From contig NZ_CP022657.1 in NCBI RefSeq assembly GCF_002243515.1, positions 836,001-900,000 of the forward strand: a DNA stretch of 64,000 nt. The letters run 5' to 3'. The position numbers and the translations under genes were made by a program. Below the pieces are notes generated by a model that saw only the letters and a program-made list of their open reading frames with translations, searched no databases and was not told the origin of the DNA. The DNA is from Tumebacillus algifaecis (lineage in GTDB: Bacteria > Bacillota > Bacilli > Tumebacillales > Tumebacillaceae). This document shows, in pieces, positions 7,506 to 9,271 of this stretch (its first letter is position 1; every line of letters begins with the position of its first letter).

Positions 7506-7534
7506 TTGACGCGGCTCGTTCGATCACTTATAGT
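7506..7534 (+). promoter_or_regulatory. Candidate promoter for murA
   Basis: TTGACG at 7506-7511 and TATAGT at 7529-7534 with an optimal 17-base spacer. This leaves an 80-base leader before the murA start. Confidence 0.6.
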
Positions 7535-7618
7535 GAAAGAAAAAGAGCCACAGAGAACCCATTTTTTGTGGTAAAATGTGTATATCGAGCCAGAATTAAC
7601 GGATGGGGTGTACAACGA

Positions 7619-8899
7619 ATGGAAGTACTTCGCGTAAAAGGCGGGGCTCCGCTGAATGGCGAAATTCAGGCATCGGGGAGCAAGAACTCCGTCCTGGCAA
7701 TCATGTGTGCCGTTCTGCTCTGTGACGGCGAAACGATTTTGGAAAACGTACCGAACTTGAGCGATGTAAATACGTTGATGGAAATTTTGGAAGAGACGGG
7801 TGTCAGCTGTGAATGGGCAGCTCCGAACACGCTGCGCTTTGTCAATAACGGTTTGACCAATTGGACGGTCTCCGAAGATCTGGTTCGCAAGATGCGCGCT
7901 TCTTTCTCCATCTTTGGCCCGCTGCTGGCGAAAGCGGGGAAGGCACAGATTCCGCTTCCTGGCGGCTGTGTGATCGGGGCGCGCCCGGTAGACCAGCATC
8001 TGAAGGCGATGCAGGCGCTTGGCGCTGAGATCAAGATGCTCGATGGAAGCGTCTATGCTGAGTGCAAGGGCGGCCGTCTGCAAGGCGCTGCGATGTTTCT
8101 CGGCACGCGCTTTGGCTCGACAGTCGGCGGCACCAACGCAGCGATCATGGCGGGGGCGCTGTCCAGCGGCACGACCGTCATCTACAATGCAGCCCGCGAG
8201 CCGGAGATTGTCGATCTTGTGATGTTCCTGAACAAAGCGGGGGCGAAGATCCGCGGCGTCGGCACCGATATCATCACGATCGAAGGTGTCGAGAGCTTGA
8301 ATGGCGTGCGCTACACCTGCATGACCGACCGCATCGAATCGGGTACCTACCTGTGCGCAGGCGCGATCACCCGTGGTCGAGTCACCGTTAAAGGCATTCC
8401 GCCGCAGTCGCTGGCAGGACTTCCGTCTCTGCTGTTCGACATGGGTTGTGACATCTCGCTCGAAGGCGACTCGATCACCGTCGATGCTCGCGATCGCGAC
8501 CTGCGTGCGACACATGTGATCACGTTTGCCTACCCTGGTTTTGCCACCGATCTGCAGCCGGCGATGCTGACGCTGCTCACGACGGCAAAAGGCATTTCCT
8601 ATGTGAAAGAGACCGTTTTTGATGCACGCTTTGGTTTCACCCAAGAGCTGACTCGCATGGGCGCAGATATTAAAATTTCTGGCGATACGGCGATCGTCAG
8701 CGGCGTGGAGCGCCTGACGGGTGCACGTGTCGTCGCAAGCGACCTGCGCGCAGCAGGCGCGATGATTCTCGGTGGCTTAGCTGCTGATGGCACGTCCACG
8801 GTCGAAGGTTTGCAATATCTGGACCGTGGTTATGAAAACCCGGTCGCGAAACTGCAATCGATCGGTGCGCAGATCGAGCGCGTAACACCGGGAACGTAG
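7619..8899 (+). CDS. murA: UDP-N-acetylglucosamine 1-carboxyvinyltransferase MurA
   Basis: A 426-residue enzyme that transfers enolpyruvate from PEP to UDP-GlcNAc, the first committed step of peptidoglycan synthesis. Evidence includes the start RVKGGAPLNGEIQASGSKNS and the catalytic cysteine Cys117 in LPGGCVIGARPVDQH, which is also the fosfomycin target residue; the binding motif TDLQPAMLTLL follows. ATG 7619 is used because family homology begins there and GGGGTG lies just upstream. Many Bacilli have two MurA paralogues and the window alone does not say which this is. The next gene encodes an IreB/ReoM-family protein, a family that controls MurA stability in Listeria. Confidence 0.95.
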   Translation: MEVLRVKGGAPLNGEIQASGSKNSVLAIMCAVLLCDGETILENVPNLSDVNTLMEILEETGVSCEWAAPNTLRFVNNGLTNWTVSEDLVRKMRASFSIFGPLLAKAGKAQIPLPGGCVIGARPVDQHLKAMQALGAEIKMLDGSVYAECKGGRLQGAAMFLGTRFGSTVGGTNAAIMAGALSSGTTVIYNAAREPEIVDLVMFLNKAGAKIRGVGTDIITIEGVESLNGVRYTCMTDRIESGTYLCAGAITRGRVTVKGIPPQSLAGLPSLLFDMGCDISLEGDSITVDARDRDLRATHVITFAYPGFATDLQPAMLTLLTTAKGISYVKETVFDARFGFTQELTRMGADIKISGDTAIVSGVERLTGARVVASDLRAAGAMILGGLAADGTSTVEGLQYLDRGYENPVAKLQSIGAQIERVTPGT

Positions 8900-8941
8900 A
8901 GAAAAGAATTTGTCTTGACCAAGAACAGGAGGGGCTTGACC

Positions 8942-9199
8942 ATGTCCAACCTCGACAAGACCATGATTTTCCGACTTGACCAAGAATCAGAACTGCTCAA
9001 TGAAATCATCACGTCGGTCGTTCCGGCACTTCGTGAACAAGGCTACGATGCGGCGCGTCAACTGGCTGGCTTTATTGTGACCGGGGAGAGCAACTACATC
9101 ACCTCGGCGAACAATGCGCGCGCGACTATGGCCAAGATGGACCGCTTGCTGGCGGTCGAACAGATCCTCAACGACTACTTCAAGCTGAAGGGTCTGTAA
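8942..9199 (+). CDS. IreB/ReoM-family regulatory phosphoprotein (divergent UPF0297 member)
   Basis: An 85-residue small helical protein. The start MSNLDKTM matches the phosphorylated N-terminus of ReoM/IreB, with threonine at position 7, and ALREQGYDAARQLAGFIVTG followed by YITSANNAR matches the family core. In Listeria, unphosphorylated ReoM promotes ClpCP degradation of MurA, and a Ser/Thr kinase relieves this. Several basic residues usual in the C-terminal half (IPRH and part of the RRLER region) are replaced here, so this is a divergent member and perhaps a second copy. A strong AGGAGGGG supports ATG 8942. It follows murA by 42 bases and is probably co-transcribed. Confidence 0.8.
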   Translation: MSNLDKTMIFRLDQESELLNEIITSVVPALREQGYDAARQLAGFIVTGESNYITSANNARATMAKMDRLLAVEQILNDYFKLKGL

Positions 9200-9203
9200 G
9201 CGT

Positions 9204-9238
9204 AAAAAGCATTTCTCCGAGCGGAGGAATGCTTTTTA
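9204..9238 (+). terminator. Terminator after the murA-ireB-like pair
   Basis: A long stem AAAAAGCATTtCTCC/GGAGgAATGCTTTTT, symmetrical enough to serve the converging minus-strand small gene as well. Confidence 0.9.
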
Positions 9239-9271
9239 TTTGTCAGCCACCCGACTCATTGCACGGTACGA

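Follow-up and report, generated by a model that had tools for sequence, protein, structure and literature searches.

A third MurA and a candidate private IreB-type regulator in a conserved gene pair of Tumebacillaceae

A gene for a third MurA homologue (murA3) and a gene for a second, divergent IreB/ReoM-family protein (ireB2) were found side by side in the window, the 64,000-nt stretch of the Tumebacillus algifaecis genome analyzed here (NZ_CP022657.1, positions 836,001 to 900,000). We are moderately confident, from the comparison of sequences, that the two genes constitute an operon in which the enzyme is accompanied by its own, kinase-gated IreB-type regulator. The pair is adjacent in all seven Tumebacillaceae genomes compared, which span two genera, and both partners appear to have changed together at the contact reported between MurA and ReoM. 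Natural enzyme-regulator pairs with changes on both sides offer a route to mapping the contact, to understanding its specificity, and to separating inhibition from proteolysis. They bear on the reasons for which Gram-positive bacteria maintain more than one MurA and on the way in which IreB distinguishes among these enzymes.

The two genes are located on the same strand, 42 nt apart (Table 1), and the spacing ranges from 23 to 54 nt across the family genomes. The promoter-like element TGTGGTAAAATGTGT is identical in 7/7 Tumebacillaceae genomes, and the DNA farther 5' is not conserved. We take this element to be a vegetative-type extended -10. A separate match to the promoter consensus, at 7506-7534, is not conserved among the family genomes. 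On the 3' side of ireB2, the first 70 nt fold with -24.3 kcal/mol, and strong hairpins follow the gene in all six genomes compared, four of which show a clear T-run; a simple terminator scan at the locus called no terminator after ireB2. Because the two genes share a promoter element and a hairpin comes after ireB2, they most likely form their own two-gene operon. In a domain scan, the pair is flanked by a thioredoxin-fold gene upstream and a family-4 glycosyltransferase gene downstream.

Table 1. Features of the murA3-ireB2 locus (window positions)
Feature	Position	Strand	Description
Conserved promoter-like element TGTGGTAAAATGTGT	7567..7581	+	TAAAAT at 7572-7577; 37 nt 5' of murA3
murA3	7619..8899	+	426 aa; UDP-GlcNAc 1-carboxyvinyltransferase homologue
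ireB2	8942..9199	+	85 aa; divergent IreB/ReoM-family paralogue
Hairpin with T-run, likely terminator of the murA3-ireB2 operon	9202..9239	+	17-pair hairpin

MurA3 scores 500.7 bits against the TIGR01072 equivalog profile (cut-off 392.7). It retains 58 of the 67 columns that are invariant in other MurAs, and its catalytic motifs (the Cys, Lys22, and Asp305, in what we presume to be the standard numbering) are intact. A 3-residue insertion at about residues 162-168, directly before the SVGAT-type substrate loop, was observed in 7/7 MurA3 sequences and was absent from the other MurAs of the two alignments compared. IreB2 belongs to the IreB family by PF06135 (68.8-69.6 bits, cut-off 25); against NF003997, the IreB equivalog of NCBI, it scores 68.9 bits, short of the cut-off of 91. 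Its matches include four PDB sequences, namely IreB, ReoM, and two of Streptococcus suis CcpS (E = 4e-10 to 2e-6). An AlphaFold2 model of IreB2 alone shows three helices and is of low quality (pLDDT 59.7), as is the model of a read-through MurA3-IreB2 chain (pTM 0.43).

The phosphoacceptor-type Thr7 (MSNLDKTM) is kept in 7/7 IreB2 orthologues, so that the first-pass annotation, which had reported a murA followed at 42 bases by an IreB/ReoM gene with this residue, is borne out by profiles, coordinates, and orthologues alike. That annotation had also pointed to differing basic residues near the C terminus, which holds in part. Of the four arginines of ReoM that were tested in Listeria, Arg62 and Arg70 are kept, Arg66 is Ala, and Arg57 is Ser, although the canonical IreBs of the same order already have Ser or Asn at position 57. 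In Listeria ReoM, changes of Arg57 and Arg62 are reported to be lethal (PMC7286690). Judging by the alignments, the telling change in IreB2 is instead Asp51 to Glu: in the loop around this residue, GESNY takes the place of GDPAY in 7/7 IreB2 sequences, and position 51 is Glu in all seven and Asp in 51/51 ordinary copies compared.

The T. algifaecis genome (4.52 Mb, one contig) was searched for the remaining members of the circuit. The PF06135 search returned two IreBs, i.e., IreB2 and a canonical IreB1 (107 bits), whose gene is flanked by ruvX and by a gene for an AI-2E transporter; no alaS was present within the 14 kb read around it. Thus the second IreB that the first-pass annotation had proposed to look for does exist, next to ruvX. 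The alaS/ruvX neighborhood that it had described as usual for the family was found at each of the 30 IreB loci that scored highest in the phylum sample (alaS or ruvX within 1.5 kb; murA in none). Four MurA-like proteins were recovered with TIGR01072, three above the cut-off and one just under it (389.3 vs 392.7); a further match, weak at 79 bits, looks AroA-like. One of these MurAs (MurAA) adjoins spoIID/spoIIQ-like genes and another lies in the dcw cluster, most of the neighbor names having been read by eye. All 14 genomes of the order have genes with PASTA domains and a single ReoY-family gene; in T. algifaecis, the former include a 660-aa frame with three PASTA domains, identified by these domains alone. 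Canonical IreB1 and MurAA are both still encoded in the genome that carries the pair.

Across the family genomes, MurA3 is 82-94% and IreB2 78-95% identical to the window proteins; the named genomes with the pair are Tumebacillus avium, T. flagellatus, T. lacus, and T. permanentifrigoris. Adjacency in 7/7 genomes rules out chance as the reason why the two genes lie together. Scanning a collection of named genomes with the IreB2 alignment gave four loci, all in Tumebacillus. Seven genomes drawn from four further families of the order each hold a single IreB with one or two MurAs, and none has a member of the MurA3 clade; two of these seven assemblies are in about 400 contigs. In a sample of the class, IreB was found in 398/398 genomes, with two matches in 10. 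In two of the latter (G113 and G200), the second match is a sub-cut-off piece inside a longer frame, which leaves a real second IreB in eight genomes, the seven Tumebacillaceae and G395. The second IreB of G395 (L043:6825-7103, 95 bits) adjoins genes for a sugar ABC transporter and a LacI-type regulator, as read by eye, and no murA is located in the 14 kb read around it.

Conservation between the two genera of the family differs among these proteins, with a mean identity of 82.1% for MurA3, 80.9% for IreB2, 73.6% for dcw MurA, 67.3% for MurAA, and 63.6% for IreB1. By this ranking, murA3-ireB2 is the best kept and IreB1 looks relaxed. Consistently, the 63.6% of IreB1 compares with 73.1% across the four further families, whereas MurAA is as similar within the family as among three other families (67.3 vs 67.4%) and dcw MurA is more so than elsewhere in the order (73.6 vs 67.7%). 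The drift of IreB1 may reflect a take-over of its work by the new pair. It would also suit IreB2 being a general extra IreB that serves all MurAs, or competes with IreB1, and that lies beside murA3 for co-expression only, as if part of the work of IreB1 had been taken over; and a single IreB of Enterococcus faecalis is reported to serve both MurAA and MurAB (PMC12077105). We consider a general role unlikely, given that IreB2 and MurA3 have changed at contact residues while the MurAAs of the family keep theirs, a pattern that fits separate partners better.

Substitutions that affect this contact are reported for both sides. In Listeria, the MurA substitutions N197D and S262L abolish the interaction with ReoM in two-hybrid and pull-down assays and let MurA escape ClpCP, both residues being in surface helices distant from the active site (PMC8959180). 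Binding of ReoM was unchanged by SPR in vitro (PMC8959180), so the two positions mark the contact by two-hybrid and pull-down only. For the E. faecalis IreB, the D50A substitution (Asp50 corresponds to Asp51 here) is reported to abolish the two-hybrid interaction with MurAB as well as its inhibition, and to severely impair binding of MurAB in thermal-shift assays (PMC12077105).

At both Listeria positions, MurA3 is changed in 7/7 sequences, N197 to Met and S262 to Gly. Position 197 is hydrophobic in none of the 53 unpaired MurAs; S262 is variable among unpaired MurAs too. Across 51 other MurAs, 67 columns are invariant, and five of them (A209, H259, K266, E269, and P303) are uniformly replaced in MurA3. 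In Listeria numbering, the replacements read N197M, A209V, H259S/T, K266L, E269D, and P303A. The segment 255-270, which holds S262, has all three of its invariant columns changed (hypergeometric P = 2e-4, for a segment picked post hoc, after the changes were seen). From their spacing, H259, K266, and E269 would lie on the same helix as S262. All seven MurAAs of the family retain A209, H259, K266, and E269, and five of them also retain N197. Together with Glu51 of IreB2, these replacements suggest that both sides of the reported contact have changed together in the pair. For this reason, there is probably little cross-talk between the pair and the canonical IreB1/MurAA circuit.

The same replacements could be read the other way, with MurA3 having escaped IreB control and IreB2 acting as a decoy or doing some other job, since MurA3 is changed at both positions of escape from ReoM/ClpCP and Asp51 of the IreB2 contact loop is also replaced. 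Such an escape is quite improbable in our judgment: an escaped enzyme would have no need for a co-transcribed IreB that has stayed about 81% identical and in which T7, R62, and Y54 are the same in all seven genomes, and elsewhere paired MurAs sit with ordinary Asp51 IreBs.

This last point comes from genomes of other classes. In the phylum sample, 23 of 346 genomes, T. algifaecis included, have two IreBs; 20 of the other 22 were read (G489 and G575 were left out). In 15 of the 20, one ireB lies directly upstream of a murA on the same strand, at 17-95 nt by match ends. The second IreB of these 15 is by alaS or ruvX in 12. In two (L156:5952-6230 and L158:2539-2814), it lies at the downstream end of a PP2C phosphatase-PASTA kinase-rsgA-rpe run, confirmed with Pfam in one of them, and in one it has none of these neighbors. 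Among the remaining five genomes, three have a Glu51-type IreB, one has its copy near a contig end, and one is without either neighbor. Three genomes with a single IreB also show ireB-murA, giving 18 paired genomes in all. The gene order in these classes, ireB and then murA, is the reverse of that in Tumebacillus. The suggestion that the pair might recur beyond this strain is thus confirmed, both by the seven family genomes and by an IreB with a distinct MurA in other classes.

A single distinct clade (UFBoot 100) unites the 18 paired MurAs from other classes, and their changes are for this reason not independent. All 18 deviate near the escape sites, 13 at position 197 (Ile) and the other five at 266 and 269; three of the 13 with Ile197 deviate at 266 as well. 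Under the same rule, none of the 53 unpaired MurAs deviates at 197, 266, or 269. Unpaired status was established by tblastn for 24 rows of the phylum sample and by coordinates for the rows of the order and two Glu51-type hosts, and the Listeria and B. anthracis MurAs were assumed to be unpaired. Five rows that failed the motif filter of the unpaired set (L088, L099, L101, L103, and L105) all adjoin an IreB and were counted as paired; a fragment (L061_G011) entered neither the residue counts nor the 78-row tree, and the fourth MurA of T. algifaecis (L006) was excluded from the larger MurA trees and counts. The IreBs paired with the 18 MurAs keep Asp51. In two of the paired MurAs (L159 and L160, from G699 and G584), Asp replaces the Cys targeted by fosfomycin.

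The origin of MurA3 was examined with topology tests and larger trees. Duplication of the family's dcw MurA was rejected (AU test, P = 4.6e-6), and duplication of its MurAA was marginally rejected (P = 0.049), so MurA3 is probably not a duplicate of the family's MurAA. MurA3 and the 18 paired MurAs are joined at UFBoot 50 in the 78-row tree and at 91/92 when 42 of the 78 rows (4/7 MurA3, 10/18 paired, and 28/53 unpaired) were analyzed under a mixture model. When the contact segments were removed, this link was lost: the 28 unpaired rows stood on one side of a branch in only 32% of bootstraps. These results point either to an old common ancestor linked to IreB or to the same surface having been reshaped twice by pairing. 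Tentatively, and with less confidence than for the Tumebacillus operon itself, an old MurA class and its own IreB may form self-contained modules with a re-cut contact, which in Tumebacillaceae would be the most constrained entry into cell-wall synthesis while the ancestral IreB and MurAA drift.

IreB2 has residues in common with Glu51 copies from other classes (GYDPARQLA, VTGE, and K-DR-VE) and groups with three of them at UFBoot 99, in a 64-column alignment with long branches; the wider split has a support of 88. Glu51 copies in these genomes also occur without an adjacent murA, and the Asp51-to-Glu change is therefore not tied to pairing. In two families of other classes, Glu51 IreBs (L179:5987-6196 and L181:3643-3828) lie upstream of spoVT on the same strand, with spoVT within about 350 nt on the 3' side in both of the two tested.

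This grouping raises the alternative that the pair is a module of a sporulation stage and not of vegetative stress, which we regard as very unlikely. The element upstream of murA3 looks like a vegetative-type extended -10, and neither of the two scanned genes flanking the pair is spoVT, as against the association of IreB2 with Glu51 copies that have spoVT on their 3' side and the report that B. subtilis mutants require MurAB, a paralogue of MurA, to carry out engulfment efficiently (PMC9600426).

How the private regulator that we favor would work can be sketched from the better-known proteins, the binding, its specificity, the phosphorylation, and the outcome all being conjectural for IreB2 and MurA3. 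Unphosphorylated IreB2 dimers would bind MurA3, the Glu51 loop meeting the surface around 197 and 259-269. IreB2 would thereby restrain MurA3, either by direct inhibition, as IreB does for E. faecalis MurAB, or by hand-over to ClpCP, as in the case of Listeria ReoM; by analogy, turnover of the Listeria type and direct inhibition are both possible outcomes. Under envelope stress, a PASTA kinase would phosphorylate Thr7 of IreB2, so that MurA3 is released and the supply of peptidoglycan precursors goes up.

That IreB acts on MurAs is already known, as is the MurAC clade. With ReoM/MurA/ClpCP of Listeria monocytogenes (PMC7286690, PMC8959180), as far as it is described there, the Tumebacillus pair has in common an IreB-fold protein with Thr7 and Arg62; MurA is the target in Listeria, and PASTA-domain and ReoY-family genes are also present in the Tumebacillus genome. 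Unlike in Listeria, a second, divergent IreB is in an operon with a third MurA whose escape sites are changed. E. faecalis IreB/MurAB (PMC12077105) resembles the pair in that an IreB acts on a secondary MurA through a contact-loop residue, D50. One IreB is reported for two MurAs there, whereas in Tumebacillus this residue is Glu and the IreB appears private. Relative to the family PF06135, IreB2 lies above the curated cut-off and below the NCBI equivalog, with Asp51 changed to Glu and Arg66 to Ala. On the enzyme side, a likeness is seen with MurAC, a third MurA clade of Firmicutes, which like MurA3 is an extra clade distinct from MurAA and MurAB, and which was published without an assigned function (PMC9600426); the main text of that paper mentions neither IreB nor ReoM. 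The literature searched, with full texts from open-licence papers, contained no description of a murA-ireB gene pairing. A link to IreB would provide a testable function for third MurAs of this kind. Furthermore, the proposal that the paralogue might be dedicated to this MurA, made when only the window had been seen, gains support from the presence of a second IreB, from recurrence, and from the changes on both partners.

The fourth MurA of T. algifaecis, the one below the TIGR01072 cut-off (L039:7018-8346; G000:C1:540038-541294), has Asp in place of the fosfomycin-target Cys. Among the other six family genomes, no match as strong was found. Its gene lies beside genes for an NRPS and an MFS transporter, and it looks like a self-resistance copy within a natural-product cluster.
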